DNA of 58,825 nucleotides from Mogibacterium sp. (GTDB lineage: Bacteria; Bacillota; Clostridia; Peptostreptococcales; Anaerovoracaceae). This document shows, piece by piece, positions 16,911 through 40,826 of the stretch. Position numbers and translations under genes: made by a program. The first letter of the stretch is position 1. Every line of letters begins with the position of its first letter. The DNA lies in the NCBI GenBank assembly GCA_017512365.1, contig JAFWGQ010000057.1:1-58825 (forward strand), written 5' to 3'. The notes beneath the pieces were generated by a model. That model was not told where the DNA came from. It did no database searches and worked only from the letters and a program-made list of their open reading frames with translations.

Positions 16911-16951
16911 TCTCACCCGTCCCCACACCGCGCATAAGTTAAATGCGCATG

Positions 16952-16980
16952 CAAGCGGAGTGTCTCCCGCTTGTTTTTTT
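16952..16980 (+). terminator. Intrinsic terminator after rpsT
   Basis: CAAGCGG / CCGCTTG stem with an eight-base loop and seven T. A second small hairpin (GCGCAT / ATGCGC) lies just upstream. Confidence 0.88.
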
Positions 16981-17015
16981 GCGCAAAAATTCCATTCTCA
17001 TCAGCACCTGCTTTC

Positions 17016-17024
17016 TGCTAAAAT
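17016..17024 (+). promoter_or_regulatory. Extended -10 promoter of the nine-gene operon
   Basis: TGC-TAAAAT lies 47 bases before the ATG at 17071. The same TGCTAAAAT appears in the tRNA promoter at 53705-53712. No strong -35 is seen. Confidence 0.6.
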
Positions 17025-17070: not shown

Positions 17071-20000
17071 ATGTACGATATGCTGTTTTCACCTATGAAA
17101 ATCGGCACGATGACAGTCAAAAACAGGATAGTTATGACTGCCGCGGAATTCAGCCTTGGCGAGCCAAGCGGCAAGGTGACTCCGCGGCTTTCTGATTATT
17201 ATGAAGAAAGAGCCAAAGGGGGAGTCGGCCTGATCATACCGGGCATATGCAGGGTGAACGACATGGCCGGAGCCGCCACATACACCCAGCTGGCCATGAG
17301 CCACGACTATCACATAGAGCCGATGCGTGAGATGGTCGAAAAGCTCCACAGTCACGGAGCGAAGCTGGCGATACAGCTTCATCACGCCGGGCGCCAGGGA
17401 CTTGCAAGCTCGATCAACTCTCTGCCTGCGGTCATACCTGTCGCAGAGCGCGTGCCGAAGTTCATGGATCTGATGTATAAATGCACCCCGGTGCTTCTCG
17501 GCATGGAAGAGAAGGGCATATGCTTCTCGGTGCAGGCGCCTTCAAAGGTGCCGTGTGCTCCTCACGGAGCTGCGCGCATGCACGCTATGAGCAACAGGGA
17601 AGTCAAGAAGCTTATCCAGGATTTCATAGACGCGGCCGAAAGGTGTAAAAAAGCGGAGGTAGACGCAGTAGAGTTACATGGAGCCCACGGCTACCTGATA
17701 CAGCAGTTCCTCTCGCCGTACACCAACCACAGGACCGACGAATACGGCGGCAGCTTCGAGAACCGCATGAGGTTCCTCGAAGAGATAGTCACGGGCATCA
17801 AGCAGCGCTGCGGAAAGGACTATCCTCTGATCGTAAGGCTCACGGTCGATGAGATGTACGACAGGATAGGAAAGCCGGGCACGGGCTATGACCTCGAGAC
17901 TGGCAAGAGGATTGCAAAACGCCTCGAGCAGCTCGGAGTCGATGCCATCAACGTATCGAGTGCCTGCTATGACGTATACAACTGCTGGCTTGAGCCAACG
18001 ACTTATGAGCCGGGATGGAGAAAATATCTGGCCAAAGCGATCAAGGAAACAGTGGACATCCCTGTCATCGCGGCCAACGTGATGCGTACTCCCGAGCAGG
18101 CCGAAAAGCAGCTCCAGGAGGGATATCAGGACTTCGTGGCGTCAGCCAGAGCCTTCATCTGCGATCCTCACTGGCCAGAGAAGGCGCAGTCCGGACATCC
18201 GGAAGACATACAGAGGTGCATAGGCTGCCTCAACTGCATCAGATCGTTCATGACCAACGCGGGCGAAGGAAAGCCCGGCGAATGCGCTCTCAACATGAGC
18301 ATAGCGAATGAGCGCTTCTACTACGACATGCCAAAGGACGGAAGAGGCCGCAAGGTCATCGTCATAGGCGCGGGCCCTTCGGGGCTCACCGCTTCGAAGA
18401 CCATGGCTATGAGGGACTTTGATGTCGAGCTTTACGAAAAGGCGGAGAAGGCCGGCGGACAGGTGATCGCGGCATCATCCGGCAGTCACAAGGAGCGCCT
18501 GTACTGGGCTATAGAAGACCTTCTTAACGCGGCGAAGAAAGAGGGCGTAAAAGTCCATCTCGGAAAGGAACTGACGGCAGAGCAGATAATTAAAAAAGGA
18601 CCGTACGCAGTGATCTGCGCTACGGGCGGCATACCGCTGAGGCCGCACTCGATACCGGGTACTGACAGGGACGACGTCATAGCGGCGCCTGATCTGCTGC
18701 TGGGAAATGCGGCAATAAAAGACAGCAGGGTAATAGTCATAGGATCGGGCATGACCGGCCTTGAGACCACGGAAATCCTGAACGAGCAGGGCAACGAGGT
18801 CACGGTGGTCGAGATGGCAGACGACATCGCACCGGGAGCGTGGTTCCAGCTGATCGACGATGAGATGGAGAGGATAAAGCCTTACGGAACGAAATTCATG
18901 ACGGGCACGAAGCTATGCTCGATAGAGGATGGCGGCGTCATCGTCGAGGACAAGGCTACCGGAGAGCAGCAGAAACTCAAAGCAGATTACGTTGTACTCG
19001 CCATGGGCGTGAGACCGAACACGGCGCTAGCCGACAAACTCAAAGAACTCGGCTTTGAGAACGTTTACTGCACAGGCGACGCCGAGAAGAGCGGCACTAT
19101 CGCGCACGCATGTCACAGCGCGTACGATACGGTGATGAACATAGGAAAGGGGAATAATGAGACCGGAGTCAAAGCTGACGATTCGAAAACTGTAAAGGTG
19201 AAGGAGGCTTCGGCAATGGGCGGAATAAACAGGATAACGGAACTGGTACTGAAAAAGGAACTGAATGAGATCAGGGGCAAAAGCGTCGTGATCACCGGTG
19301 CGTCGAGCGGCATCGGAAAGGAAGTACTCGACAGGCTGGCCGATCCTGCGAAGAATAACAAAGTGCTGGCAACGAGCCGCACCATCGAAAAACTCACGGG
19401 CTACGGAGACAATGTCACGCTTTTCAACAGCGATGTGAGCACAAAGGAGGGCGTTGACGCGCTCTTCGAAAAGGCTGAGTCGATGTTCGGTAAGATAGAT
19501 ATCGTGATCGCGAACGCCGGGGCTCCGTATTACGAGAAGTTCGACTACGTCGACTGGGACCGCATCCAGAACATATTCAGCCTCAATACGATATCGCCTA
19601 TATACACATACACCAAGTATCTTGAGCACCTGAAGGGAAGGGAGGGCCACCTGGCATGGACGATCTCTGCGATGGGCGAGATGGCCATACCGGGCTACGC
19701 TCTTTACACATCGACAAAGTTCGCGATGAAGGGCTTCCAGGAAGCCATAAGGCTCGAGGCTCCGAAGAATCTCAGGCTGACAGCCGTATATCCGGTATCC
19801 ACAGCCACCAACTTCTTCAATGTCGGAGGAAACGGCATCGATGTAGGCAGGCCGTTCCCGGTGCAGAAGGCCGAGCTCGTGGCTGACCGCATGATAGACG
19901 GCATCGAAAAGGCAAAGGAGCACATCTATCCGTGCCGCATCTGGAAACCTTCAAAAGCTCTCATGACAGTAGTGCCTCAGATAAAGAGCTTCTACTGGGG

Positions 20001-20076
20001 CATGGAAAAGAACAGACTGAAAAGATTCCTGAAAAAGAAAGCAGAACTCGAGAACAAACTGGCAGACAAACTGTAG
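17071..20076 (+). CDS. Ene-reductase (OYE/2-enoate reductase type) fused to a short-chain dehydrogenase
   Basis: This 1001-residue protein joins two enzymes. Residues 1-340 form an FMN TIM barrel of the Old Yellow Enzyme type ('LHHAGRQG', 'ELHGAHGYLIQQFLSPYTN'). An iron-sulfur motif follows (C383, C386, C389, C405). FAD and NAD(P) domains start near 428 ('VIVIGAGPSGLTA') and 552 ('VIVIGSGMTGLET'). Up to about 700 it looks like a BaiCD/2,4-dienoyl-CoA/2-enoate reductase. Residues 735-1001 form an SDR with 'TGASSGIG', 'NAGAP' and catalytic Y879/K883. One part should reduce an activated C=C bond and the other oxidise or reduce an alcohol or ketone, possibly on the same substrate. The substrate is unknown. 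An internal ribosome site could also express the SDR alone. Confidence 0.88.
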   Translation: MYDMLFSPMKIGTMTVKNRIVMTAAEFSLGEPSGKVTPRLSDYYEERAKGGVGLIIPGICRVNDMAGAATYTQLAMSHDYHIEPMREMVEKLHSHGAKLAIQLHHAGRQGLASSINSLPAVIPVAERVPKFMDLMYKCTPVLLGMEEKGICFSVQAPSKVPCAPHGAARMHAMSNREVKKLIQDFIDAAERCKKAEVDAVELHGAHGYLIQQFLSPYTNHRTDEYGGSFENRMRFLEEIVTGIKQRCGKDYPLIVRLTVDEMYDRIGKPGTGYDLETGKRIAKRLEQLGVDAINVSSACYDVYNCWLEPTTYEPGWRKYLAKAIKETVDIPVIAANVMRTPEQAEKQLQEGYQDFVASARAFICDPHWPEKAQSGHPEDIQRCIGCLNCIRSFMTNAGEGKPGECALNMSIANERFYYDMPKDGRGRKVIVIGAGPSGLTASKTMAMRDFDVELYEKAEKAGGQVIAASSGSHKERLYWAIEDLLNAAKKEGVKVHLGKELTAEQIIKKGPYAVICATGGIPLRPHSIPGTDRDDVIAAPDLLLGNAAIKDSRVIVIGSGMTGLETTEILNEQGNEVTVVEMADDIAPGAWFQLIDDEMERIKPYGTKFMTGTKLCSIEDGGVIVEDKATGEQQKLKADYVVLAMGVRPNTALADKLKELGFENVYCTGDAEKSGTIAHACHSAYDTVMNIGKGNNETGVKADDSKTVKVKEASAMGGINRITELVLKKELNEIRGKSVVITGASSGIGKEVLDRLADPAKNNKVLATSRTIEKLTGYGDNVTLFNSDVSTKEGVDALFEKAESMFGKIDIVIANAGAPYYEKFDYVDWDRIQNIFSLNTISPIYTYTKYLEHLKGREGHLAWTISAMGEMAIPGYALYTSTKFAMKGFQEAIRLEAPKNLRLTAVYPVSTATNFFNVGGNGIDVGRPFPVQKAELVADRMIDGIEKAKEHIYPCRIWKPSKALMTVVPQIKSFYWGMEKNRLKRFLKKKAELENKLADKL
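19200..19218 (+). promoter_or_regulatory. Internal in-frame ribosome site at the SDR domain boundary
   Basis: GAAGGAGG lies nine bases before an in-frame ATG (19216, Met716), exactly in the linker between the reductase and the SDR domain. It could start a separate 286-residue SDR, or it may be a remnant from before the two genes fused. Confidence 0.5.
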
Positions 20077-20089
20077 AAAGGAAAATGAA

Positions 20090-21238
20090 ATGGCTAATAT
20101 TCATGACATTACCAGAGACCGTTGGATGCTTTACGGCCCGCTCTCAAGAAAGGGCTATGATTGGTGGTGGCATTCGATGACTGCAGAGAACGCCGAGACC
20201 GGCGAAAAGAAAGCGTTCTACATCGAATTTTTTACGTGCAACCCGGCGCTCGCGGAGGACGAGCCAGTGATCGTATGGAACGACCCGGAGGCACAGGCTG
20301 CAGGCAGAAGGCCTTCGTATCTTATGGTCAACGCGGGCTTCTGGGGAGAGGACCACGGACAGCTGCATAGATTCTTCTCGCTTAAAGATGTGGACATACA
20401 CGCCACTGCTCCATACAGCATCGCTGCGGACGACTGCAGGTGCAGCGAGGTGCACACCGAAGGCCATATAAAGGTCACGCCTGAAGAGGCCGAGGCACAT
20501 CCTGAGTGGATGAGCGACGCCGGCGAGATAAGCTGGAAGTTCGACATCCGCAAGGAGATCGCCTTCCACGTCGGATACGGCGCCAGCAAGTTCTTCAGGG
20601 CGATCAACGCCTTCGAGATGTTCTGGCACGCTGAGGGCATGAAATCGGCGTTCACCGGCGAGATCACCCTCAACGGCGTAAAGTACATCCTCAGGCCTGA
20701 AACATGCAACGGCTACTCCGACAAGAACTGGGGCGGCGATTTCACGAGCCCTTGGGTATGGCTCTCTTCCAACAACCTCAAGAGCATGATCAGCGGCAGA
20801 AAGCTGGAGAACAGCGTGTTCAACATCGGCGGCGGCAGACCTAAGGTGTTCGGAATAGCGCTCAACAGGAAGCTCCTGGGAGAGTTCTACTATGAGGGGA
20901 AGGACTATGAATTCAACTTCTCGAAGTTCTGGACTCTGTCGCGCACGAAGTTCGACTGCTGGGAGACCGATGACGAGATCCACTGGCATGTGCTGCAGAC
21001 AACAAAGAACGCCAGGCTTGACACACAGATAAGATGCGCCAAGAAGGAGATGCTCAACATCAAGTACGAGGCTCCTACAGGCTACAAGAAGCACAACAGA
21101 CTGTGGAACGGCGGCACAGGCACGGGTACTCTCAAACTTTATAAACGCTCGCTCTTTGGGCGAAGTGAAAAACTGATCGATGAAGTATACGCCGAGGGCA
21201 TAGGCTGCGAATACGGCGAATACTGCGATCCGGAATAG
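20090..21238 (+). CDS. Tocopherol-cyclase-like / AttH-type lipocalin-fold protein
   Basis: The 382-residue protein resembles the tocopherol cyclase/carotenoid hydratase (CrtC, AttH) superfamily. The best signature is 'DKNWGGDFTSPWVWLSSNN' at about 218-236, the central motif of tocopherol-cyclase-like proteins. It is rich in Trp and beta structure and has no signal peptide. Family members bind or modify hydrophobic, often isoprenoid or quinone-like, substrates. It starts 13 bases after the fusion gene and has a GAAAGGA site, so it belongs to the operon. A hydrophobic substrate for the pathway is a reasonable inference. Confidence 0.65.
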   Translation: MANIHDITRDRWMLYGPLSRKGYDWWWHSMTAENAETGEKKAFYIEFFTCNPALAEDEPVIVWNDPEAQAAGRRPSYLMVNAGFWGEDHGQLHRFFSLKDVDIHATAPYSIAADDCRCSEVHTEGHIKVTPEEAEAHPEWMSDAGEISWKFDIRKEIAFHVGYGASKFFRAINAFEMFWHAEGMKSAFTGEITLNGVKYILRPETCNGYSDKNWGGDFTSPWVWLSSNNLKSMISGRKLENSVFNIGGGRPKVFGIALNRKLLGEFYYEGKDYEFNFSKFWTLSRTKFDCWETDDEIHWHVLQTTKNARLDTQIRCAKKEMLNIKYEAPTGYKKHNRLWNGGTGTGTLKLYKRSLFGRSEKLIDEVYAEGIGCEYGEYCDPE

Positions 21239-21250
21239 GAGAGGAGTCAG

Positions 21251-23227
21251 ATGAGATCCTGCACTGGGAAAATCCTTAAGGTCGATCTGTCCGCAGGAAC
21301 GACCGCAGTCGAGAACATACCTGATGAAGTCTACGAGGCCGTGCTTTCAGGCAAGGGCCTCGGAGCATGGTATCTGTACAAAAACATACCCGCAGGAGCG
21401 GATCCCCTGGGACCTGACAACATCCTGGGCTTCTGCTCGGGAGCGCTTACCGGTACGGGAGCTTTCATGACGGGCAGGTTCACTGTCGTATGCAAAAGCC
21501 CTCTTACGGGAGGCTGGGGCGACGCCAACTGCGGCGGAGTCTTTTCGCCTGCCATAAAGCAGTGCGGCTATGACGCCATATTCATAAGCGGCGTATCCGA
21601 AAAGCCGGTCTATCTGTACTGCGGCAACAAGGGAGCCGAGATAAGGGACGCTTCCGAATACTGGGGCCTTGATGCCGTCGAGGCAGAGAACAGGCTCCTT
21701 GCCGAAAACAGCGGAGGAAAGAAGCCTCGCATAGCCGTGATCGGTCAGGCAGGCGAGAACCTGTCTCTGATCTCGGGCATATGCAATGAAGGCGGCAGGA
21801 TAGCCGGAAGAAGCGGTGTCGGAGCCGTGATGGGCAGCAAGAAGCTCAAGGCTGTCGTCCTCGCGGGCAGCAGAGCCATGCCGTGCGCGGACCCCGCTGC
21901 AGTAAAGGCTCTGTCGAAACAGCTCGGCAGCAAGATCAATAAGATGTGGATCCCTAAAGGACTGGGAGGCGGCATCGGTCTGATGGGGATAGGCATGGGC
22001 AGCAGCCCGTATGTTCTTCCTCTTGACGGATCCATGACTGCATACCTTTTCCGCGAATGGGGCACGCCTTCGAATACTCCTCTTGCCATAACCAGCGGCG
22101 ACGGGCCTCTCAAAAACTGGGGCGCCGGTCCGGCTGAAGTAAAAGGCCTGCGCCTTGCGCTGGACTATAACCCGGAGAAGATAAACAGGATCGAAGAAGC
22201 GAAGTATCACTGCTACTCGTGTCCTCTGGGATGCGGCGGCAGGCTGGATATCTCTGGAGTGAAATACAGCGAATACTACGAGACACATAAACCTGAGTAC
22301 GAAACTCTGCAGGCCTTCGGGCCTCTCTGCGTCAACCGCGACATGGATTCAGTGCTGTACATGAACGAGCTGCTGAACCGTGCCGGCATGGACTCCATAT
22401 CCGCCGGCAATACCGTCGCCTGGGCCATAGAGTGCTATGAGAACGGAATACTCACAAAGGAGCAGACCGACGGTCTCGAACTGAAGTGGGGCAGCTTTGA
22501 GGCCGAGATCGAACTGATCCGGAAGATGATCGCCCGCGAAGGCTTCGGAAACGATCTTGCCGACGGTGTGAAACGCGCTTCAGAAAAGTACGGCGGCAAA
22601 GAATACGCCATGCATGTTGGCGGACAGGAGCCGGGCATGCATGATACCAGAAACGACCCGCAGCTCGGCATACACATGGTGGCAGAACCTGCGCCGGGCA
22701 AGCATACCATAGGCATGGGCGTCCAGTACAACGCCATGTCGCTCTGCGACATATGCAGCTGGGCTCCTCCTGCTTCTCTTCATCCAAAGGCGGATGATCT
22801 CGAAGCGACTGAAACTCTGGCTCTCATATCCAAAGCGAACGCCTGCTACTCGATGCTGTTCGACGGTATCGGGGGCTGTTATTACGCCGAGATGATGGGC
22901 GTCCACATGTATAAAGCGATAGAGTATATCAACGCGGCTGCCGGATGGGACTACGACGGCGATCATTACATGGAGATAGGAGAGCGCATACAGACGATCC
23001 GGCAGATGTTCAATGTAAAGCACGGATATGAGCCGGCTGATGTAAAGCTTCCGAAGCGCATGCAGGGGGAACCGCCCCTTAAGACCGGTCCGCTGAAAGG
23101 GGTCACTCTGAAAAACGACGAGCAGGTCGCGATGCACTGGAAGGCCTTCGGCTGGGACGAAAAGACCGGACACCCGCTTCCTGAGACCATAGAAAAACTG
23201 GGGATAAACAGACTTATGGAGATGTAA
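21251..23227 (+). CDS. Tungsten-containing aldehyde:ferredoxin oxidoreductase family protein (AOR-2)
   Basis: A 658-residue AOR-family enzyme that should carry a bis-pyranopterin tungsten site and one [4Fe-4S] cluster. The N-terminal domain includes 'LTGGWGDANCGGVFSPA' and 'AGRSGVGAVMGSKKLKA'. The cluster ligands are C321, C324, C328 and C360. It is only distantly similar to the other AOR in the window. Its 'GDANCGG' segment recalls BamB, the tungsten subunit of class II benzoyl-CoA reductase, but the assignment is uncertain. An adjacent ferredoxin gene and two dehydratase-like genes suggest low-potential reductive chemistry. The start has a strong AGGAGAGGAG. Confidence 0.85.
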   Translation: MRSCTGKILKVDLSAGTTAVENIPDEVYEAVLSGKGLGAWYLYKNIPAGADPLGPDNILGFCSGALTGTGAFMTGRFTVVCKSPLTGGWGDANCGGVFSPAIKQCGYDAIFISGVSEKPVYLYCGNKGAEIRDASEYWGLDAVEAENRLLAENSGGKKPRIAVIGQAGENLSLISGICNEGGRIAGRSGVGAVMGSKKLKAVVLAGSRAMPCADPAAVKALSKQLGSKINKMWIPKGLGGGIGLMGIGMGSSPYVLPLDGSMTAYLFREWGTPSNTPLAITSGDGPLKNWGAGPAEVKGLRLALDYNPEKINRIEEAKYHCYSCPLGCGGRLDISGVKYSEYYETHKPEYETLQAFGPLCVNRDMDSVLYMNELLNRAGMDSISAGNTVAWAIECYENGILTKEQTDGLELKWGSFEAEIELIRKMIAREGFGNDLADGVKRASEKYGGKEYAMHVGGQEPGMHDTRNDPQLGIHMVAEPAPGKHTIGMGVQYNAMSLCDICSWAPPASLHPKADDLEATETLALISKANACYSMLFDGIGGCYYAEMMGVHMYKAIEYINAAAGWDYDGDHYMEIGERIQTIRQMFNVKHGYEPADVKLPKRMQGEPPLKTGPLKGVTLKNDEQVAMHWKAFGWDEKTGHPLPETIEKLGINRLMEM

Positions 23228-23228
23228 G

Positions 23229-23462
23229 ATGGCGAATGCAAAGAAGATACCGAGCTTTCATTATGAGAACTGCGTGAGCTGCAGCATCTGCGTTCAGGCA
23301 TGTCCGGCCGGAGCGATCGATCTGACAAAGCCGGGCAAGAGCGGCAGATACCGCAATCTCTTTCCCGAACTGGTGAACGAAAGGTGCACAGGCTGCGCCT
23401 TATGCGCAAAAAGCTGCCCGATGGACTGCATCAACATGCAGGCTGTATATGAGACGGAATAG
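23229..23462 (+). CDS. 2[4Fe-4S] ferredoxin-like protein
   Basis: The 77-residue protein has two CxxCxxCxxxC motifs ('CVSCSICVQAC' and 'CTGCALCAKSC'), each binding a [4Fe-4S] cluster. It starts one base after the AOR-2 stop, so it is the likely electron partner or small subunit of AOR-2, or the donor to the dehydratase-like pair that follows. Confidence 0.9.
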   Translation: MANAKKIPSFHYENCVSCSICVQACPAGAIDLTKPGKSGRYRNLFPELVNERCTGCALCAKSCPMDCINMQAVYETE

Positions 23463-23494
23463 ATAAACTTTTAAAGGAAAAAGGGTAGAGAATC

Positions 23495-24691
23495 ATGAGA
23501 GATCTTAAGCACATCCATTATTATGAGGAACTGCTCGAACAGACCGCGAACGAACTGGTGCTGAAGGAGAAGGAGGAAGGCGGCATAGCGGCAGGCTATA
23601 CCTGCTATTATCTGCCTGAAGTGCTCCTTAACTGCGGGAAGGCTTTTTCAGTCAGGCTGAGGGCTCCGAATACCGGTTCCCTCGACATAAGCCAGTACTA
23701 CATGTCGAGCTTCATCTGTGGCTATACGAGAGCACTCTTTGAGAGAGCTTTTGAGGGAGGCATGAACTTCCTCGATTTTTACGCGAGCTCGGACACCTGC
23801 CAGCAGATGGTGCGGGTGGTCGAAAACATAAGAGAACTCGGTCTCATCAGTAATCCGGACTTCGGATGGGGCATCATAGACGCTCCTCTGAAGATAAGCC
23901 CGCACGGTATAAAGCTGTATACCGACCAGATAAGGGACCACATATTGAAGCCGATGTCCGAAAAGTACGGCATCGACATATCCGATGAGTCCATACGTGC
24001 TGCGGTCAGAGAACACAACGAGATGTGTGCCGTTTTCGAAGAGATAACGGAGATGAGAAAACCGGAGGTTCCGGGTATCACACCGAGGGAGTTCCATATA
24101 CTATCACTTGTGAGCTACGCCTGCCCGACCGCTAAGATACTGCCGTATCTCAGAGAGAGCCTTGAGGATCTCAGAGAGCGTAAGCCTGATCCGCCGGGGC
24201 GATGGAGAGCACGCATCGTTGTGGTCGGAAGTGAACTCGACGACTACGGTTTTTCGGAGATACTTGAGAACGCGCGCTGCTATGCGGCGGCCGACCGCTA
24301 CTGCTTCGGATCCTTCCCGGGAAGGCAGCAGATACATCTTACAGAAGATGAGCCCGCTCTCGATCAGGTATGCCGGTTCTATCTTGAGACGAATCAGTGC
24401 CCGCGCTTCATGTCGCAGGAGAAGATAAGAGACAGACGCGAGACCGTGAAAAGACTGGCCGAAGAGTACCATGCCGACGGGGTGGTTATAGAGCAGGCCA
24501 AATTCTGCGACTTCTGGGGATACGAGCGCACTCTGAACACTCAGGTGCTGTCAGAGGAGTACGGGCTTCCGACACTCGGCATAGACCGCGAATATGTGGT
24601 CAGAGGCTCGGGACAGCTTGCTACCAGGATCCAGGCATTTGTAGAGAGCCTTGAATACAAGAAGATAAAGAAGGGCGGTGGAGAGCTGTGA
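23495..24691 (+). CDS. 2-hydroxyacyl-CoA dehydratase/benzoyl-CoA reductase family protein, subunit 1
   Basis: This 398-residue protein belongs to the HgdA/HgdB/BcrB/BcrC family, whose members bind a [4Fe-4S] or double-cubane cluster and receive one high-energy electron. Three well-spaced Cys match family ligands: C75 ('SFICGYTRA'), C102 ('SSDTCQQM') and C338 ('KFCDFWG'). The later segment 'EEYHADGVVIEQAKFCDFW' followed by 'GLPTLGIDREY' is typical of the family. It overlaps the next gene by four bases (GTGA), so the two are translationally coupled and probably form a heterodimer. No CoA-transferase gene is nearby, so the substrate may not be a CoA ester. Confidence 0.85.
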   Translation: MRDLKHIHYYEELLEQTANELVLKEKEEGGIAAGYTCYYLPEVLLNCGKAFSVRLRAPNTGSLDISQYYMSSFICGYTRALFERAFEGGMNFLDFYASSDTCQQMVRVVENIRELGLISNPDFGWGIIDAPLKISPHGIKLYTDQIRDHILKPMSEKYGIDISDESIRAAVREHNEMCAVFEEITEMRKPEVPGITPREFHILSLVSYACPTAKILPYLRESLEDLRERKPDPPGRWRARIVVVGSELDDYGFSEILENARCYAAADRYCFGSFPGRQQIHLTEDEPALDQVCRFYLETNQCPRFMSQEKIRDRRETVKRLAEEYHADGVVIEQAKFCDFWGYERTLNTQVLSEEYGLPTLGIDREYVVRGSGQLATRIQAFVESLEYKKIKKGGGEL

Positions 24692-26226
24692 AAAAGGGCA
24701 AAGCGGATCTTCTCAGAAAGGACACCGGCATCCTTAAGCACAGGGAGTGGCGCGGCATTAGCGACACCGTCTACGACTACAGCCAGTGGTGCCGCCTCTG
24801 GGGAATACTCATAAAATGGGCTGCCTCACATCCGGTGCAGAATGTGAAGGCTGTGATGAGATACCGCTGGATGTTCTCATACATAACTGTCGCGGCCTTT
24901 TTCGACCGCATATGCATGGGTCAGAGGGGAGCCGGACTCAGAGCTGCGCGGAGCAATCTGAACTATCTTGCGAGCGATGTGACGAAGACCCTTACGACCA
25001 TATTCTCGGCCGACATGAATCTTCATCCGGGCAGCAAAAAAGCAAGGGAACTGAACAAAAAGATCATATGCTTCGACGAGCTTCTGCCGGCGATACTCGG
25101 CAAGGGTTTTCCCGGCTGCAGTACCATACTCTTCCAGGAATATCCGATGTATCTGCCGTCCCTGATACACCAGCACAGTCCGGTGCACTACATAGAGCAG
25201 TCCGAGCTGTACGGTCTGCCGGCTGACGTGTGCCCGCTGCCTTCGTTCGAGGCGGGCCTTGCCATAGAAGACGATTTCCCTAAGATCGGCTGCTGCATGG
25301 TCACATCGAACATGCCCTGTGACGGCAGCATAATGACGACCATGATACAGGAAAGGCGCATAGGGCTGCCTTCGGTGCCTCTGAACGTGCCTCTGCGCTG
25401 GAAGGAAGACGAGGTGCAGGACTATGCTGTGGAAGAGATAAAGGAAGCCATATCCTTCATGGAGAAGCACACCGGCCGGAACTACGACTGGGATGCCCTG
25501 ACGGAAGCCTGCAGAATCTGGAACGCTCAGAACGAAGCCAAGTTCGAGAAGTGGGACATGAACAAAACGGATATACCGCCTCACACAGGCTCGTCAGCAT
25601 GGCTGTACAGGATATTCGAGCATCAGGCGGTCTGCGGAGAACCGGCAGCTCTCAGAAACGACCTTAAGGTGAACAGGATACTGCGCAGACAGGTCGCGAA
25701 GGGGAAGTGCCCCAAGACCATACGTCACAGAGCTATAATATGGAACACTCCGGCAAATAACTACGCCAACTTCAACAACTGGCTGCTCGACTGCTGGGGC
25801 ATTGACTCAGTCTGCGAGATGATAGATATACACGGAACGGATCTCATAGATACATCGAGCCGCGAGAGCATGCTGCTCGGCATAGCCGGCATGTACCAGA
25901 CATCCACCATGCGGGCCCATACCAAGGGCGGCAGCGAGGTCATGCTGGACGATCTCTGGGAGAAATACGAAGAATACAATGCTGACATGATAATCATGTT
26001 CGACCAGATATCCTGCAAGGGAGTCGGTGCGATCAACGGACTGTTCGAGGAGGGCGCCATGCATCGCGGCATACCGATGTGCCGGGTGAGGCAGGATCTC
26101 ATGGACCCTACATCGATAACAAGACGCGAGATGAGAAACGATGTGAACGTCTTCATGCTGACTGTGATGAAGGAAGAGCCGCTCGATGCCTCGCTTGTGG
26201 ATTTCGATGATGATAAGAGCTGGTAA
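24688..26226 (+). CDS. 2-hydroxyacyl-CoA dehydratase/benzoyl-CoA reductase family protein, subunit 2
   Basis: At 512 residues this is the larger partner and is longer than usual because of an N-terminal extension of about 60 residues. Family features are the helical 'DWDALTEACRIWNAQNEAKF' segment and a C-terminal half with 'YNADMIIMFDQISCKGVG' and 'RGIPMCRVRQDLMD'. Several extra Cys occur ('GCCMVTSNMPC', 'DCWGIDSVC'), so the cluster content may differ from HgdB. The GTG start overlaps the previous stop. The nearby CooC-type ATPase may activate or mature this pair. Confidence 0.82.
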   Translation: MKKGKADLLRKDTGILKHREWRGISDTVYDYSQWCRLWGILIKWAASHPVQNVKAVMRYRWMFSYITVAAFFDRICMGQRGAGLRAARSNLNYLASDVTKTLTTIFSADMNLHPGSKKARELNKKIICFDELLPAILGKGFPGCSTILFQEYPMYLPSLIHQHSPVHYIEQSELYGLPADVCPLPSFEAGLAIEDDFPKIGCCMVTSNMPCDGSIMTTMIQERRIGLPSVPLNVPLRWKEDEVQDYAVEEIKEAISFMEKHTGRNYDWDALTEACRIWNAQNEAKFEKWDMNKTDIPPHTGSSAWLYRIFEHQAVCGEPAALRNDLKVNRILRRQVAKGKCPKTIRHRAIIWNTPANNYANFNNWLLDCWGIDSVCEMIDIHGTDLIDTSSRESMLLGIAGMYQTSTMRAHTKGGSEVMLDDLWEKYEEYNADMIIMFDQISCKGVGAINGLFEEGAMHRGIPMCRVRQDLMDPTSITRREMRNDVNVFMLTVMKEEPLDASLVDFDDDKSW

Positions 26227-26243
26227 AGGGGAAGAGGACGAAA

Positions 26244-26477
26244 GTGAGAGTGAAGATATTCCCGCCGCGCGGCTGCGACAGAAGCGCCCTTGACGCCAGA
26301 TCCTGGGCCGAAATGCCGGAAGGCAGTACGGTCGGCGATGTGCTGAAACTCATAAAATGCAGCCCTGTAAGGGCAAAGATGCTGCTTGTGAGCGTGAACG
26401 GCGAACGGGCGAAGCTCGGAAGGGTGCTTGATGACGGAGACGTAGTAGGTTTCTTTTCGCCTGTCTCCGGAGGATAG
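26244..26477 (+). CDS. MoaD/ThiS-like sulfur-carrier protein ending in GG
   Basis: A 77-residue beta-grasp protein that ends in SPVSGG, so it can be adenylated and thiocarboxylated. 'GSTVGDVLKLIKCSPVRAKMLLVSVNGERA' and 'LDDGDVVGFFSPV' are typical of MoaD/ThiS. It could donate sulfur for the pterin of AOR-2, or for another product of this operon. A GTG start follows GAGGACGAAA. The likely partner E1 enzyme is at 34.2-34.9 kb. Confidence 0.8.
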   Translation: MRVKIFPPRGCDRSALDARSWAEMPEGSTVGDVLKLIKCSPVRAKMLLVSVNGERAKLGRVLDDGDVVGFFSPVSGG

Positions 26478-26481
26478 GGCA

Positions 26482-26709
26482 ATGGGACACAAAAAGTATG
26501 ATGAAGTCTGGGCGGTAGAGACAGAACGGGTAAAAGCGTTCTTTGATGAGTCCCGCAGCGGTCATAAATGCGATGTTACGGTCATGCCGATGCCGGTCAG
26601 AAGCATCGGACCGGTGAGCGTGCCGCAGACGAGGATCATCATCACCGGAGACGGAGCTGATGAACTTTACAGGAGATTCTGCCTGAAGTTCATGACTGCA
26701 GGAGGTTAG
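26482..26709 (+). CDS. Small protein of unknown function ending in GG
   Basis: I do not recognise this 75-residue protein. It begins MGHKKYDEVWAVETERVKAF and ends KFMTAGG. The C-terminal GG resembles the sulfur-carrier protein encoded immediately upstream, but I cannot see a clear beta-grasp pattern. It contains one Cys (about residue 31) and has no membrane segment. It has a GGAGGA site, lies four bases after the previous gene and four before the ATPase gene, so it is a true operon member and may be a small subunit or a second carrier protein. Confidence 0.75.
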   Translation: MGHKKYDEVWAVETERVKAFFDESRSGHKCDVTVMPMPVRSIGPVSVPQTRIIITGDGADELYRRFCLKFMTAGG

Positions 26710-26712
26710 GCG

Positions 26713-27453
26713 ATGAAAATTTTACTGTGCGGGAAGGGCGGCTGCGGAAAGAGCACCCTTGCGGCCCTTCTTGCCGGGGCGTATGCGGCAGACGGAAGGA
26801 ATGTGCTGGTAGTTGACTGCGATGAGTCGAATTACGGTCTTCACAGGCAGCTCGGCCTTGAGCTGCCTGAAGATCTCACTCATTATTTCGGAGGAAAGAA
26901 AGGGGCGTACAGGGAGTTCGACAGCAAGGGCAGAGTCTTTGAGAAGAAGTGGACTCCTGAGGATGTCCCTCCGGAATATACGAGCCGGAAAGACGGGATC
27001 AGGCTTATCGCCGTCGGAAAGATATCCGAAGCGGGCGAGGGCTGTGCATGCGGCATAGGCTTTCTTGCGAAGGAATTCCTGAACAACCTCGAGACAGGCG
27101 ATAACGACATCGTCATAGTCGATACGGAGGCAGGCGTTGAGCACTTCGGAAGGGGCGTGGACGAGTTTGCCGATGCCATCATAATGGTGGTCGATCCTTC
27201 ATACGAGTCCATACATCTGTCTGAGAAGGTGTGCGACATGTGCCGGGCATTCGGCAAGCCGGTATACATCGTCATCAACAAAGCGGATGAGGCTCAGGAA
27301 AAACTTATAAGAGAGACGATACGTGACAAGGAAGCTGTCATAGCGGCGATACGTCCCGACGCCGGCATCATGGAGGCGGGCCTGAAAGGAGAGCCTCTCT
27401 CTGCGGACATTCCGGCGTTAAGATCCATAAAGGATAAACTTGAAAAAGCCTGA
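26713..27453 (+). CDS. CooC-like MinD/ParA-family ATPase
   Basis: This 246-residue protein has the deviant Walker A motif 'GKGGCGKST' near residue 7, 'VVDCDESN' and 'VIVDTEAGVEHFGRG'. It has a CxC in 'GEGCACGIGFL', as in CooC, the ATPase that matures the nickel site of CO dehydrogenase. No CO dehydrogenase is present in the window. In this operon it more likely matures, or feeds ATP-driven electrons to, the dehydratase-like pair or AOR-2. Dehydratases of this type normally use an ASKHA-fold activator (HgdC type), which is absent here. Confidence 0.85.
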   Translation: MKILLCGKGGCGKSTLAALLAGAYAADGRNVLVVDCDESNYGLHRQLGLELPEDLTHYFGGKKGAYREFDSKGRVFEKKWTPEDVPPEYTSRKDGIRLIAVGKISEAGEGCACGIGFLAKEFLNNLETGDNDIVIVDTEAGVEHFGRGVDEFADAIIMVVDPSYESIHLSEKVCDMCRAFGKPVYIVINKADEAQEKLIRETIRDKEAVIAAIRPDAGIMEAGLKGEPLSADIPALRSIKDKLEKA

Positions 27454-30084: not shown

Positions 30085-30087
30085 CGT

Positions 30088-30555: not shown

Positions 30556-30577
30556 TTTTTCGTACCAGCCTTTCTGT

Positions 30578-30862: not shown

Positions 30863-30889
30863 ATAGCGCCTCCTTGAATATGCACCAAA

Positions 30890-30917
30890 TCCGGAAGCGG
30901 CTGACACCGCCTCCGGA
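30890..30917. other. Stem-loop between AOR-1 and moaD
   Basis: TCCGGAAGCGG pairs with CCGCCTCCGGA (one mismatch) around a six-base loop. It has no T run and lies in an 84-base gap of the operon, so it may be an mRNA processing site or a partial terminator. Confidence 0.5.
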
Positions 30918-30946
30918 CCGGTTATAAGTTCGGTATTTACAGTTTA

Positions 30947-33386: not shown

Positions 33387-34268
33387 ATGAACATACAGAA
33401 TCTGAGATATTTTGCGACAGTTGCCAAGCTGGAGAATGTTTCAAAGGCTGCGGAACTGATGCACACATCGCAGTCCTCGATATCCAAGAATATCTTTACT
33501 CTCGAGGAGGAGCTTGGAACGAAGCTTTTTGACAGACACGGCAAAAAGCTGGTGCTTAATGATGCCGGCAAACGCTTCCTGCAGAGCTGCGACAGGATAC
33601 TTCAGGAGACGGAGACAGTGACAAAGGATCTCAGATACATGTCGACCGGTGAGGACAAACTTATCAGGATATGCGCCATAGGTACGGATCCGCATCTGTT
33701 TACATTCATGTCGATGTTCAAAGTCTCTTATCCCGAAGTCGAATATGCAGTAGACACTGCCGCCGAAAGCGGCGGGCTTCCGGACATAAACAGATACGAC
33801 CTTGTAATCTATCCGGATGAACTCAAGTACAGGAAGTTCAAGGGCGTGGACTTTTTTATCGAGAAGCACTTCTTTGCCGTCAGGGTGGACAACCCTCTGG
33901 CAGAGAGGGTGTCTCTTCCCGTAAAGATGATGGACGGAATGCCGATGGTGTTTCTCAACCGCGGACTTGAATACGAATATCCGTATCATGTCTGCATCGC
34001 GCAGAATGTCAGGATGAAATCGGTGAATTTCGTGGATTCAAGGGACCTCCACAGACAGATGATCTCAAACGGCATAGCATCCGGCTTCGTGCCCGAGGGA
34101 AGCGCCGAGATGTACAGGAACGACAGCAGGATAAAACTGCTGCATCTGACCGATGACAGATTCACGAGGCGGATGAAGGCCTGCTTCAAAAGAGAAAAAC
34201 ACCTCTCACTTACGGGGAACGCTTTCAGACAGGCGATGACAGAGTATTTCAATCTGCAAAGCGAATGA
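33387..34268 (+). CDS. LysR-family transcriptional regulator
   Basis: A 293-residue LTTR. The N-terminal helix-turn-helix (about 1-60) has 'LENVSKAAELMHTSQSSISK' and 'TKLFDRHGKKLVLNDAGK'; the rest is an effector-binding domain. It is divergent from the polyferredoxin-AOR-1 operon, the usual place for an LTTR that controls the neighbour. An aldehyde or a downstream acid may be the effector; this is inference. Its 3' end overlaps the E1-like gene on the opposite strand by 20 bases. Confidence 0.93.
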   Translation: MNIQNLRYFATVAKLENVSKAAELMHTSQSSISKNIFTLEEELGTKLFDRHGKKLVLNDAGKRFLQSCDRILQETETVTKDLRYMSTGEDKLIRICAIGTDPHLFTFMSMFKVSYPEVEYAVDTAAESGGLPDINRYDLVIYPDELKYRKFKGVDFFIEKHFFAVRVDNPLAERVSLPVKMMDGMPMVFLNRGLEYEYPYHVCIAQNVRMKSVNFVDSRDLHRQMISNGIASGFVPEGSAEMYRNDSRIKLLHLTDDRFTRRMKACFKREKHLSLTGNAFRQAMTEYFNLQSE

Positions 34269-34935
34269 TATCGAAACTCATGTCCGCCAGAGAGCCTATC
34301 AGGAGGCTTTTCTCCAGAGGCACATCCAGGCCGCACAGGTATCTGATCGCTGCTGCAGCTTCTATCGCTGCACAGGCAGCGGGCGTGACCGCAAGCGATG
34401 CTTTCGAGGAAGGCGCATAGTCTTCGGGATACAGCTGGTGCAGCAGACCTGATCCCGGAGGTACGAGCATTACCTGAAGGTCCCATCCGCAGATCGCGCC
34501 GTGCACTATAGCCAGCCCTGCGTCCGCGGCGGCATCCTCGAGAACGAGTCTTGAGGCCGCGTTATCGAGCGCATCGACAACAAGATCAGCGCCTTCCATC
34601 AGAGCGGCCGCATTTTCTTCAGTCAGGAATTCGCATACAGGCGTCACCTCGATCGACGGATCGACAGCCCTTACGCGTTCGGCAGCAGCAAGAGCTTTCT
34701 TCTGACCGATGTTTCCGGCAGTGCTCAGTATCTGACGGTTGAGATTCGATTCTTCGAACACATCGCCGTCGACAACAGTCAGCGCTCCTGTGCCCATTCT
34801 CGCAAGATGCTCGATGATGTTTCCTCCCAGGCCTCCGCATCCGGCCACAAGGACCCTGCTTTCAGCGATCTTTTTCATGTCCGTTTCGGATAAAGCGAGC
34901 ATACTTCTGCTGTGTCTTTCCTTTATATCATCCAT
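34249..34935 (-). CDS. ThiF/MoeB/HesA-family E1-like adenylyltransferase
   Basis: A 228-residue E1-like enzyme with 'VLVAGCGGLGGNIIEHLARMG', 'VVDGDVFEESNLNRQ' and 'DALDNAASR', which bind ATP and the carrier-protein C-terminus. It lacks the paired CxxC zinc motifs of MoeB and most ThiF proteins, as some HesA-type members do. It should adenylate the C-terminal Gly of a MoaD-like protein; two such proteins and a third GG-ended small protein are in the window. It starts one base after the upstream FAD enzyme stop. Confidence 0.88.
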   Translation of the reverse strand: MDDIKERHSRSMLALSETDMKKIAESRVLVAGCGGLGGNIIEHLARMGTGALTVVDGDVFEESNLNRQILSTAGNIGQKKALAAAERVRAVDPSIEVTPVCEFLTEENAAALMEGADLVVDALDNAASRLVLEDAAADAGLAIVHGAICGWDLQVMLVPPGSGLLHQLYPEDYAPSSKASLAVTPAACAAIEAAAAIRYLCGLDVPLEKSLLIGSLADMSFDIIRFAD

Positions 34936-37993: not shown

Positions 37994-38968
37994 ATGGTTG
38001 ACAAATACGGCAGGACAATAGAATACATGAGGGTATCAGTCACTGACAGGTGCGATCTGCGCTGCAGGTACTGCATGCCGCCGGAAGGCTGCGAGAAGGT
38101 GCCTATGAGCAGCATCCTCACATATGAGCAGATAGTGCGCATATGCAGAGTGTCTGCGGATCTCGGCATCAGCCGAATAAAGATCACGGGAGGAGAACCC
38201 TTTGCCAGACTCGGCTGCACCGGCCTGATCAGGGACATCAAGGGCCTTCCCGGAATAGAGCAGGTCACGGTCACCACAAACGGACAGACTCTCGAAAACC
38301 ACATCGAAGAACTGAAGGCGGCGGGAGTCGACGGAATAAACATAAGCCTCGACACACTCGATCCCGGAAGGTTTGCATACATAACGGGCAGAGGCGTGCT
38401 CGAAAAGACCCTGAGGGCCGTTGAACTGGCCGCGGGGTCCGGCATAAAGACCAAGATAAACAGCCTCATAATGAAAGGCTTCAACGAGGATGAGATCACA
38501 GCGCTCGCCGGATTCGCCTTCAGTCGCGGCATAGACGCCCGTTTCATAGAGATGATGCCGGTGGGAGCTGCTGACGCGGGCAGGGGCATGTCGAATGAGA
38601 CCGTCCTGGCTGTTCTGAAAGAAAAATGGCCGGAGCTTGTGCCGGATGAAAGCATCCACGGTAACGGGCCTGCAGTCTATTACAAAAGACCAGGAGAAAG
38701 AGGGGCGATAGGTCTCATAAGCGCGATGCACGGAAAGTTCTGTGAGGAATGCAACCGCGTAAGGCTTACGTCTCAGGGCGAGATAAAGCCGTGTCTTTGC
38801 TACGATACCGGGACGGACATAAGACCTTTCCTTTCGGAGTCCGACGACAGACTGAGGGAAGCTGTAAGGGACGCGATACTTGAAAAACCCGAAGCCCACT
38901 GCTTCGATTCCATGAACGATGCCGGAGGTCATGCCGAGCACCGCCTGATGTCACAGATAGGAGGTTAG
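37994..38968 (+). CDS. moaA: GTP 3',8-cyclase MoaA (radical SAM)
   Basis: MoaA starts pterin synthesis by rearranging GTP. The radical-SAM motif is 'CDLRCRYCMPPEG'. The second cluster motif is 'CEECNRVRLTSQGEIKPC'. The GG tail required for activity is present: the protein ends QIGG. Length is 324 residues. The ribosome site is weak, and a possible TAATAT -10 lies 29 bases upstream in the 114-base gap, so a separate promoter is possible. No Moco riboswitch-like structure was recognised. Confidence 0.96.
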   Translation: MVDKYGRTIEYMRVSVTDRCDLRCRYCMPPEGCEKVPMSSILTYEQIVRICRVSADLGISRIKITGGEPFARLGCTGLIRDIKGLPGIEQVTVTTNGQTLENHIEELKAAGVDGINISLDTLDPGRFAYITGRGVLEKTLRAVELAAGSGIKTKINSLIMKGFNEDEITALAGFAFSRGIDARFIEMMPVGAADAGRGMSNETVLAVLKEKWPELVPDESIHGNGPAVYYKRPGERGAIGLISAMHGKFCEECNRVRLTSQGEIKPCLCYDTGTDIRPFLSESDDRLREAVRDAILEKPEAHCFDSMNDAGGHAEHRLMSQIGG

Positions 38969-38969
38969 C

Positions 38970-39914
38970 ATGGGTAAGACAGGAAAAGTCACAGCCGTAT
39001 GCATAAGTGAAAAGAAAGGAACTCAGAAGAAGGAAGTTCCTTCAGTGACCCTCGTTCCGGAATGGGGCATCGAAAACGATGCACACGCGGGGAGGTGGCA
39101 CAGACAGGTGAGCCTTCTGGCGCTCGAAAAGATAGAAGCCTTCCGCGAAAAGGGAGCGGATGTGGATTTCGGCGCGTTCGGAGAGAACATCATCACAGAG
39201 GGCTTCGATTTCAGAACTCTTCCTGTAGGCACGAGGTTCAGGATAGGAGATGCTCTGCTTGAGCTTTCTCAGATAGGCAAGGAGTGCCACACACACTGCG
39301 CGATATATCATCAGGTCGGAGACTGCATCATGCCGAGAGAGGGAGTATTCACGATCGTGCTTGAAGGAGGCACGGTCAGGGCAGGCGACAGGATCGAGAT
39401 GATCGAAGCCGATCCTGACAGGCCGTTCACCGCGGCATGGATAACGCTCTCGGACAAGGGGGCGGCAGGCGAAAGAGAGGACAGGAGCGGGCCGCTGATC
39501 GGAGAGATCCTTACAGAAGCCGGCTATAACGTGGTCGAAGGCATTCTTATCCCGGATGAACCTGAGGTGCTCATGCGTCATCTCATAAGGCTAGCCGATC
39601 AGAGACAGGTGAATGTCATCTTCACTACGGGCGGCACGGGCTTTTCGCAGAGGGACAGAACGCCTGAGGCCACAGCTGAGGTATGCGACCGCATGACGCC
39701 GGGAATATCCGAGGCGATCAGAGCTTATTCGATGACAAAGACTCCGACGGCAATGCTGTCAAGAGCTGCGGCAGGCATGAGAAAAGAGACTCTCATCATA
39801 AATCTGCCCGGCAGCCCTAAGGCGGTGAGAGAATGTCTGGAATTCCTGATCCATCCTCTCGGACACGGCCTTGAGATAATGCTTGGAAGAGACGGCGAAT
39901 GCGCGCGTCCCTGA
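38970..39914 (+). CDS. MOSC domain fused to MogA-type molybdopterin adenylyltransferase
   Basis: A two-domain protein of 314 residues. Residues 1-145 are a MOSC domain ('GIENDAHAGRWHRQVSLLA', 'FGENIITEGFDF', 'IGKECHTHC'), a fold that binds molybdopterin or persulfide. Residues 150-314 are a MogA/MoaB domain ('ITLSDKGAAGEREDRSG', 'FTTGGTGFSQRD', 'INLPGSPKAVRECLEF'), which adenylates molybdopterin before metal insertion. Its start overlaps no other gene but has AGGAGG. Fusion suggests direct hand-over of the pterin. Confidence 0.92.
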   Translation: MGKTGKVTAVCISEKKGTQKKEVPSVTLVPEWGIENDAHAGRWHRQVSLLALEKIEAFREKGADVDFGAFGENIITEGFDFRTLPVGTRFRIGDALLELSQIGKECHTHCAIYHQVGDCIMPREGVFTIVLEGGTVRAGDRIEMIEADPDRPFTAAWITLSDKGAAGEREDRSGPLIGEILTEAGYNVVEGILIPDEPEVLMRHLIRLADQRQVNVIFTTGGTGFSQRDRTPEATAEVCDRMTPGISEAIRAYSMTKTPTAMLSRAAAGMRKETLIINLPGSPKAVRECLEFLIHPLGHGLEIMLGRDGECARP

Positions 39915-39956
39915 CAATAAACGACAGCTATTTCTTCAGACACAAGGAGGGACTTT

Positions 39957-40826
39957 ATGAAGTTCAGAAAGTTAACTGTCGTTCTTCTCAGCTGCATCAT
40001 GGTATTTGCCTTTGCGGCATGCGGCAGCAAAACGACAGAGGAGACGACAGAAGAGACGACATCAGACGGCGGCGTTCTGATGATGGCTACGACCACGAGT
40101 ACGGAGGACACCGGACTGCTCGACTATCTCAAGCCGCTCTTCAAGGATGACACCGGCATCGACCTTCAGTGGACTGCTGTGGGAACGGGCGAGGCTCTCA
40201 AGATGGGCGAGGACGGACAGGTCGACGTTGTGCTCGTACACGCTAAGTCCAGCGAGGACGAATTCGTTGAAAACGGCTACGGAGTTGAGAGATTCCCGGT
40301 AATGTACAACGATTTCGTGATCGTGGGACCGGCTGATCCGATCGCAAAGACGGATGATGTCACTGCAGTGTTCACGGCCATAAGCGAACAGCAGCTTCCG
40401 TTCGTATCCCGCGGAGATGATTCGGGAACGGACAAGAAGGAAAAGAAGATATGGGAGGAGCTCGGCATCGACCCGACAACGAATCCGAACTACATCGAAA
40501 GCGGAGACGGCATGGGCGCCACTCTTACGATGGCAAACGAGAAGAACGCTTACTGCCTGACAGACAGAGGAACATGGCTCAAGCAGTCGAAGGACTCCGA
40601 GAACGATTATGTCATCGATATCGTATGCGAAGGAGCGCCTCAGCTGCTCAACCAGTACGGCGTCATCGCTGTAAGTCCTGAAAAGTATCCGGACGTCAAC
40701 AACGAGGCTGCCAACAAGTTCATCGAGTGGATCACTTCCGAGAAGGTCCAGAAGCTGATCGGCGAGTACGGCGCGGATGAATACGGTCAGGCTCTGTTCA
40801 CGCCAAACGCAGGGACCGATAACTGA
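39957..40826 (+). CDS. tupA: Tungstate ABC transporter substrate-binding lipoprotein TupA
   Basis: A secreted lipoprotein with the lipobox 'FAAC' near residue 21, followed by a Thr/Glu-rich linker. 'TTTSTEDTGLLDYLKPLF' and 'DVVLVHAKSSEDEFV' are the TupA signatures that separate it from molybdate (ModA) and sulfate binders. Length is 289 residues. A strong CAAGGAGG site precedes it. It captures tungstate outside the cell and passes it to TupB, which fits the two tungsten enzymes upstream. Confidence 0.95.
   Translation: MKFRKLTVVLLSCIMVFAFAACGSKTTEETTEETTSDGGVLMMATTTSTEDTGLLDYLKPLFKDDTGIDLQWTAVGTGEALKMGEDGQVDVVLVHAKSSEDEFVENGYGVERFPVMYNDFVIVGPADPIAKTDDVTAVFTAISEQQLPFVSRGDDSGTDKKEKKIWEELGIDPTTNPNYIESGDGMGATLTMANEKNAYCLTDRGTWLKQSKDSENDYVIDIVCEGAPQLLNQYGVIAVSPEKYPDVNNEAANKFIEWITSEKVQKLIGEYGADEYGQALFTPNAGTDN

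Follow-up and report, generated by a model that had tools for sequence, protein, structure and literature searches.

The described systems closest to the locus reported here are the ene-reductases of the FadH/old yellow enzyme (OYE) kind, including 2,4-dienoyl-CoA reductase, NCR, BaiCD and BilR; tocopherol cyclase, which binds a phytyl chain; the WorL/WorS-type aldehyde:ferredoxin oxidoreductases (AOR) with a small iron-sulfur (FeS) partner; the class I benzoyl-CoA reductase BzdNO of Aromatoleum sp. CIB; and the ATPase CooC. Relatives of all of these were found together in a 58,825-nucleotide stretch of Mogibacterium sp. DNA (GenBank assembly GCA_017512365.1, contig JAFWGQ010000057.1, positions 1 to 58,825), referred to below as the window. 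They are encoded by nine open reading frames (ORFs), g1 to g9, all on the + strand between positions 17071 and 27453: an OYE fused to a short-chain dehydrogenase/reductase (SDR) (g1), a tocopherol-cyclase-like protein (g2), an AOR (g3), a ferredoxin (g4), a BzdNO-like pair (g5 and g6), a MoaD-like carrier (g7), a small protein ending in Gly-Gly (g8) and a CooC-like ATPase (g9). An earlier note on this DNA had described one block of closely spaced or overlapping genes of named families, and all nine ORFs were indeed present in the order it gave, with gaps from -4 to 32 bases. Its family calls were borne out by Pfam and NCBIfam searches and could be refined in two respects: g7 is a ThiS/MoaD carrier, and g5 and g6 match BzdN and MbdO, respectively, first among solved chains, both of these being class I benzoyl-CoA reductase subunits.

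Six of these genes recur as a block, the core, in two groups that are mainly herbivore-gut Clostridia; g5-g6 form a module of their own, which in the window stands between the ferredoxin and MoaD genes. Apart from g8, the enzymes are of known kinds; it is the recurring assembly that was not found described. The combination was not found in searches of the open PubMed Central (PMC) library, in keeping with the statement in the earlier note that it matched no known pathway. To our knowledge, no bacterial genes have been assigned to the formation of phytanic acid or dihydrophytol in the rumen, and the locus supplies a specific set of expressible genes as a candidate for the anaerobic conversion of oily plant compounds in herbivores. 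In a paper on the classification of tungsten oxidoreductases (WOR), the available portion of the main text contains none of the terms flavin oxidoreductase, 2-hydroxyacyl, short-chain dehydrogenase, CooC and MoaD (PMC13328260).

Recurrence and distribution of the six-gene core

Gene order was mapped by tblastn with the window genes in the window and 24 further loci, chosen mostly for the presence of g1 (25 sequences in all; L183, one of them, is the same contig as L018). The core was taken as OYE, SDR (fused or separate), g2, AOR, ferredoxin and MoaD-like carrier. All six genes were found in the same order in 17 of the 25 sequences, interrupted in the window by g5-g6. Among the eight others, the contig ends inside the block in L049 and L065, g1 is missing from L183, L027 carries a large deletion, and the tblastn map showed OYE and SDR only in L171, L172, L173 and L085. 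The OYE-SDR part was absent or cut by large deletions at L027:3202-3846, L188:11408-12771 and L018:3340-3510, which reflects either real loss or mixed-strain assembly.

Outside the window, the full nine-gene order was found in none of the loci examined (34 g6 loci, described below, and the 25 mapped sequences); the nearest copy, L018/L183, has eight of the nine genes and is missing g1. A search for the same order in other genomes had been proposed in the earlier note as a check on a single nine-gene pathway. That expectation held for the six genes that recur as a block, whereas g5-g6 also occur apart and g8 and g9 are occasional extras.

The core spans two groups, labelled Mogibacterium/Clostridiales and Oscillospiraceae/Ruminococcaceae. 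In the second group, identity to the window proteins was 67-69% for OYE and 71-72% for AOR. In the Mogibacterium-like loci that were read, a single open frame encodes both OYE and SDR; elsewhere each has its own gene. Pairwise distances of OYE, SDR, g2 and g3 across 17 genomes were correlated at 0.95-0.98 (no species-tree control); these four proteins diverge together.

A scan of named genomes for g6 yielded the 34 loci. A herbivore or the rumen appears in the titles of 15, and a RUG isolate, which we take to mean rumen, in those of 10; nine titles give neither. Among these 34 genomes, g1 was found in 21 (at least 65% identity, OYE matches of 39-47% identity being dropped as paralogues) and AOR in 20 (at least 72% identity). 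Both g1 and g3 were present in 17 genomes, one alone in seven and neither in 10 (Fisher p 0.0014, uncorrected for kinship). Two genomes holding g1 remnants (G198 and G206) were scored as lacking g1, and the locus L023 (genome G202), whose AOR frame has one stop, was still scored as core. When 197 genomes of the family were sampled, g2 at 90% identity or above was found in three (G000, G135 and G091), all of which carry g6 at 84% or above; G169 has g6 without g2. A class-wide search for g1 at E 1e-200 detected it in 2 of 391 genomes, the window's own included, a figure that may be an undercount as two candidates per genome were scored. The corresponding phylum-wide search for g2 at E 1e-10 gave 4 of 398 genomes, again including the window's own.

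Enzyme families encoded in the operon

Three Pfam domains, Oxidored_FMN, Pyr_redox_2 and adh_short, were found in g1. The closest solved chain to the OYE part by phmmer was 2-naphthoyl-CoA reductase (6qkg), followed by FadH (1ps9), and all the features of FadH-type OYE were present: a flavin mononucleotide (FMN) barrel, a flavin adenine dinucleotide (FAD) domain, four FeS cysteines and a His-X2-His-X-Tyr site. The OYE residues H203, H206, Y208, C383, C386, C389 and C405 were invariant in 22 of 22 sequences, as were N839, S866, Y879 and K883 of the SDR part, which we take to be the SDR tetrad. By analogy with YqjM-type enzymes, His203 and His206 presumably bind the carbonyl oxygen and Tyr208 presumably donates the proton. 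In contrast to FadH/OYE enzymes, the g1-type OYE is fused to, or adjoins, an SDR; moreover, g1 has roughly 38 extra residues before position 155, as estimated from alignment offsets, and falls under the cut-off of all 25 NCBIfam models among the matches listed. Other OYE-like ORFs of ~940 residues with an adjoining SDR gene were observed at L130:7104-9917, L130:14099-16921 and L131:9331-12162; the second of these, the one of the three that was tested, is fused to an acetoacetate-decarboxylase domain. At L187:4108-10761 (genome G794), an OYE 48% identical to g1 has neighbours that look by eye like acetoacetate decarboxylase and a glycyl radical enzyme with its activase. Outside the core loci, at L174:1-4948 (genome G216), an OYE about 45% identical to g1 lies ~1.7 kb from a gene that looks by eye like a CoA transferase.

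Residues 145-376 of g2 matched Tocopherol_cycl (PF14249) over profile positions 121-334 of 335, scoring 35.7 bits against a cut-off of 26.6. Unlike tocopherol cyclase, g2 is a bacterial protein of 382 residues with an unmatched N-terminal part. It was found in all 17 core loci, and distant copies occur without the core in other genera. Among solved chains, no relative of g2 was found (best E 0.17).

The g3 protein has the domains AFOR_N and AFOR_C and was closest to PfAOR (1aor, E 2.3e-95, compared to 3.1e-46 for BamB, 4z3w); judged by these matches, it is likely a tungsten-type, aldehyde-oxidising enzyme. The ferredoxin gene g4 was found directly 3' of g3 in all 17 core loci, and g7 (PF02597) follows g3-g4 directly in the 16 core loci other than the window. 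With its AFOR_N/C domains, its own ferredoxin, a MoaD and often a ThiF nearby, g3 resembles the WorL/WorS-type AOR with a small FeS partner, from which it differs in sitting in an ene-reductase operon.

By their HGD-D matches, g5 and g6 are assigned to the benzoyl-CoA-reductase/2-hydroxyacyl-CoA-dehydratase family. Six cysteines of g5 (C37, C75, C102, C270, C302 and C338) were invariant in 19 of 19 aligned rows, paralogues included, and align with BzdN cysteines; they match the [8Fe-9S] ligand set Cys36/73/100/263/293/327 given for BzdN (PMC11971306). In g6, C182, C211 and C443 were invariant in 19 of 19 rows and a fourth cysteine in 18. C182 aligns with BzdO Cys95, C211 falls within one residue of Cys128, and C443 aligns with an MbdO cysteine, the BzdO alignment stopping short of it. 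No equivalent of the catalytic His131 of BzdO was seen in g6, where Gly213/Ser214 stand at this place in a weak alignment (E 0.005) that leaves the Glu65 region unaligned. A double-cubane [8Fe-9S] cluster is predicted for g5 and a [4Fe-4S] cluster for g6; the pair has the cluster ligands of BzdNO but not clearly its catalytic residues. Like BzdNO, it is a heterodimer-type HGD-D pair with six cysteines in the small subunit and three in the other. Unlike BzdNO, it has a long N-terminal extension on g6, and its operon is without an ATPase gene of the BzdPQ kind. Among NCBIfam models, the double-cubane-protein model scored 106 bits on g5 compared to 53 bits for BzdN, and it was the only one to match g6 (31 bits), all far under their cut-offs.

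Two other assignments of the pair were rejected because the cysteines of HadC differ and because a double-cubane cluster protein needs the set in both subunits. In 2-hydroxyacyl-CoA dehydratases, the small subunit lacks the double-cubane ligands, all six of which are present in g5; no cysteine of HadC (3o3m_B) aligns with g5 C270, and the one nearest to C37 is three columns off. The homodimeric double-cubane cluster protein, whose model scores best for both genes, carries the set in every subunit, and g6 has three invariant cysteines. Numerous weak matches to g6 were discounted as due to chance or to remote members of the family.

In 12 of the 25 mapped sequences, g5-g6 were found no further than ~2.6 kb from core genes or from what is left of them, in three arrangements. 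They lie upstream of g1 in L020-L023, L028 (with an amidohydrolase gene between), L029, L044 and L049, and upstream of core remnants in L027; the window and L183 have them inserted between ferredoxin and MoaD; and they are convergent, about 2.5 kb away, in L170. The window's own genome holds four g6-type genes (36-100% identity; contigs 30, 40 and, twice, 43), each with a g5-type neighbour. The two pairs on contig 43 (C43) stand with a BadF-type activase, a CooC-like ATPase, a CdhC-like protein of ~245 residues and an HtpG-like gene, the last named by eye and the other three families named from a like cluster in G169 (L120). The activase clusters are located at L117:12428-18484 and L118:905-3734 (G000 contig 43, two pairs) and at L120:1000-15791 (three pairs). 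A BadF/BcrAD-type ATPase was not found among the nine genes; a match over cut-off was found in 31 of 35 genomes compared to 8 of 14 control genomes. Since a BadF-type activase is available in trans on contig 43, g9 need not be the activator. The pairs point to a gut-bacterial lineage of putative two-subunit reductases with the full double-cubane cysteine set, four paralogous pairs being present in one genome, and the reach of this cluster becomes testable.

No match to Pfam or NCBIfam was found for g8, which follows g7 also in L022, L133 and L183 and may be a substrate or a carrier of its own. Weak matches to g8, of which there were many, were disregarded as chance or remote relatives. At L178:8159-9549, a g8 relative (62%) adjoins a radical-SAM/SPASM protein in a stretch with no AOR orthologue. 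The best solved relative of g9 was CooC (3kje, phmmer E 7.8e-18), with which it shares a P-loop ATPase domain and a C-X-C motif seen by eye; the likeness is one of sequence match and, unlike CooC, g9 adjoins g8. Of the mapped loci, only two, the window and L183, have g9 next to g8; a 69% relative was found on contig 12 of G135, away from the other genes.

A possible pathway and its alternatives

We read the cluster as encoding a peripheral pathway by which herbivore-gut Clostridia act on an oily plant compound, probably not CoA-activated, and consider the chances of this reading to be even. The SDR would reversibly oxidise an alcohol to an enal or ketone. The OYE, with electrons from NAD(P)H reaching it by way of FAD and [4Fe-4S], would saturate the C=C bond next to the carbonyl, and the fusion of the two enzymes would hand the intermediate on. 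The g2 protein would bind the oily chain and isomerise, hydrate or cyclise it. AOR and its ferredoxin would oxidise an aldehyde to the acid, yielding low-potential electrons, with g7 as the sulfur carrier for the AOR pterin. The g5-g6 pair would be a separate ATP-driven radical reductase that is linked to the pathway in the window genome, g5 providing a double-cubane relay and g6 the catalytic [4Fe-4S]; its ATPase would probably be the BadF-type activase on contig C43, and g9 would possibly help in cluster loading.

Nine of the 17 core loci have a gene for an Fe-type alcohol dehydrogenase within the block or adjoining it, and 10 have one for an amidohydrolase, which fits alcohol/aldehyde chemistry. 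The g2 family and a FadL/TodX porin gene (L065:185-1522; PF03349, 218 bits), located ~300 bases upstream of a split OYE-SDR-g2, point to an oily substrate, so that the hydrophobic compound suggested in the earlier note was supported indirectly. In 16 of the 17 core genomes, no acyl-CoA ligase gene (PF00501, AMP-binding) was found closer than 10 kb to the core, several contigs ending sooner and CoA transferases not being searched, and this speaks against a CoA-activated aromatic compound. On the core contig of G201, an AMP-binding match lay about 100 kb off, and the other 15 core contigs had none.

Phytol, which is derived from chlorophyll, is the leading candidate substrate, although we put it forward tentatively and judge it unlikely in itself. 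It leads because OYE, SDR and AOR would each act in succession on a prenyl alcohol, phytol passing by way of phytenal and phytanal to dihydrophytol or phytanic acid, and because of the phytyl chain bound by tocopherol cyclase. It leads also because rumen microbes have been reported to convert phytol, the products being dihydrophytol, phytanal and phytanic acid (PMC7551613). The more specific proposal of a herbivore-gut set for hydrogenation and oxidation of a prenyl compound (chlorophyll- or terpenoid-derived, such as phytol), with g5-g6 acting as an [8Fe-9S] radical reductase on the free, non-CoA substrate, is regarded as improbable.

Several observations weigh against this pathway or parts of it. 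Oily enones, enals and allylic alcohols would all fit, and the cluster is not tied to phytol in particular. The window operon is itself without the Fe-type alcohol dehydrogenase and the amidohydrolase, in a search that covered the operon only. L065 is a 5.3-kb contig in a metagenome-assembled genome assigned to the window's family, which is taken as monoderm, and may be contamination, perhaps from a diderm. The core is separable because L189 has g3-g4-g7 but neither g1 nor g2, and because L018, L027 and L188 are without the OYE-SDR part or have largely lost it while keeping the AOR module wholly or partly. As to g5-g6, G161 has OYE, SDR and g2 (about 60-68%) yet no g6 match; for 23 of the 34 g6 loci, the DNA retrieved, in some cases short, contains no visible orthologue of g1-g4 or g7; and the distances of g5-g6 correlate with those of OYE, SDR, g2 and AOR at 0.64-0.77 only (no species-tree control), where a value of about 0.7 may be mere common descent. 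With regard to CoA activation, G211 has a partial AMP-binding match, over cut-off, ~3 kb from the core, and AMP-binding genes were found elsewhere in all 17 core genomes.

Some of these observations are shared by the alternative that survives best, namely that three independent modules (OYE-SDR-g2, AOR-ferredoxin-MoaD and g5-g6) and two accessory genes share one promoter here by chance. The 23 g6 loci without a core orthologue in the DNA fetched and the AOR-ferredoxin-MoaD genes standing without g1-g2 in L189 are what it would lead one to expect, together with g2 apart from the core in other genera, OYE and SDR alone in L171, L172, L173 and L085, and the occurrence of all nine genes together in the window only. 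It accounts poorly for a six-gene core kept across two groups at the OYE and AOR identities given above, and for g5-g6 lying so near to core genes or remnants in 12 of the 25 sequences, whether upstream, inserted or convergent, and we consider it rather unlikely.

The possibly aromatic substrate mentioned in the earlier note corresponds to a reductive dearomatisation of a polycyclic or phenolic compound, in which the OYE would be naphthoyl-CoA-reductase-like and g5-g6 a Birch reductase like the class I benzoyl-CoA reductases. The first place of 2-naphthoyl-CoA reductase among solved chains for the OYE, those of BzdN and MbdO for g5 and g6, and the BzdN cluster cysteines kept in g5 are consistent with it. 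The suggestion was nevertheless weakened by the double-cubane-protein model scoring above BzdN on g5 and alone on g6, by the acyl-CoA ligase not found near the core in 16 of 17 genomes, by His131 not being seen in the weak alignment of g6, and by a g3 nearer to AOR than to BamB. The explanation is held to be quite doubtful.

Saturation of polyunsaturated fatty acids, as in rumen biohydrogenation, is also thought improbable. In this case, SDR, OYE and g2 would take the parts of CLA-DH, CLA-ER and the hydratase/isomerase in the Lactobacillus plantarum scheme. The rumen distribution and the FadL gene beside the L065 copy would fit, as would the related L130 OYE fused to an acetoacetate-decarboxylase domain with its adjoining SDR gene and the G794 OYE adjoining a gene that looks by eye like acetoacetate decarboxylase; however, an MCRA-type hydratase was found in 0 of the 17 core genomes, no acetoacetate-decarboxylase gene was seen in the core, and AOR would have no clear part. 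Least probable is the reduction of a plant sterol or other 3-oxo-delta4 ring (5beta-reduction with a hydroxysteroid dehydrogenase), for although the mycofactocin-OYE, BaiCD and bilirubin-reductase models give the OYE equal scores and the solved relatives of the SDR include 17beta-HSD11 in second place and HSD13 lower, the 396-398 bits scored by the OYE fall far short of the NCBIfam cut-offs of 750-825, and AOR and alcohol dehydrogenase would have no clear role.

Operon layout and neighbouring genes

The gaps between the nine genes were, in order from g1 to g9, 13, 12, 1, 32, -4, 17, 4 and 3 bases, and a purine-rich stretch resembling a ribosome site was seen by eye 5' of every start, the weakest being that of g5. 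Between positions 16500 and 28000 on both strands, promoter-like matches were at the level of shuffled sequence (7 compared to a mean of 7.1) and terminator-like matches were above it (20 compared to 9.8). The features are given in Table 1.

Table 1. Features of the operon and its surroundings in the window
Feature	Position	Strand	Basis
Terminator-like hairpin with T-run after rpsT	16951-16974	+	consensus match only
Promoter-like site between rpsT hairpin and g1	16995-17024	+	consensus match only
g1, OYE ene-reductase (FMN/FAD/[4Fe-4S]) fused to SDR	17071..20076	+	Pfam, phmmer, invariant residues
g2, tocopherol-cyclase-like (hydrophobic-ligand cyclase/isomerase/hydratase or binding protein)	20090..21238	+	PF14249
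g3, aldehyde:ferredoxin oxidoreductase, likely tungsten-type	21251..23227	+	AFOR_N, AFOR_C
g4, ferredoxin, two 4Fe-4S motifs, likely g3 electron partner	23229..23462	+	Pfam, position after g3
g5, BzdN/double-cubane-cluster-protein-like subunit, six cysteines of predicted double-cubane [8Fe-9S] site	23495..24691	+	HGD-D, alignment
g6, BzdO/MbdO-like subunit, three invariant cysteines, long N-terminal extension	24688..26226	+	HGD-D, alignment
g7, ThiS/MoaD-type sulfur carrier ending GG, probably for g3 pterin	26244..26477	+	PF02597
g8, 75-residue protein ending GG, outside Pfam/NCBIfam families	26482..26709	+	profile searches
g9, CooC-like P-loop ATPase, CbiA-type	26713..27453	+	Pfam, phmmer 3kje
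ThiF/MoeB-type protein, possible g7 partner	34249..34935	-	PF00899
MoaA-like, MOSC-like and TupA-like genes (pterin and tungstate supply)	37994..40826	+	PBP_like_2 for TupA-like; three names by eye

Homologues of the ThiF/MoeB-type protein were found in six other core loci (L023, L132, L134, L169, L170 and L182). The MoaA-, MOSC- and TupA-like genes are located 10-13 kb past the end of the operon; L132 has homologues of all three close to its core, and L028 one of the TupA-like gene. Adjoining the operon and convergent with it, at positions 27542-32755 on the - strand, a second AOR gene was observed together with NuoE/NuoF-type and 2Fe-2S/4Fe-4S genes, a set that resembles the bifurcating multi-subunit (Class IV) tungsten oxidoreductases.

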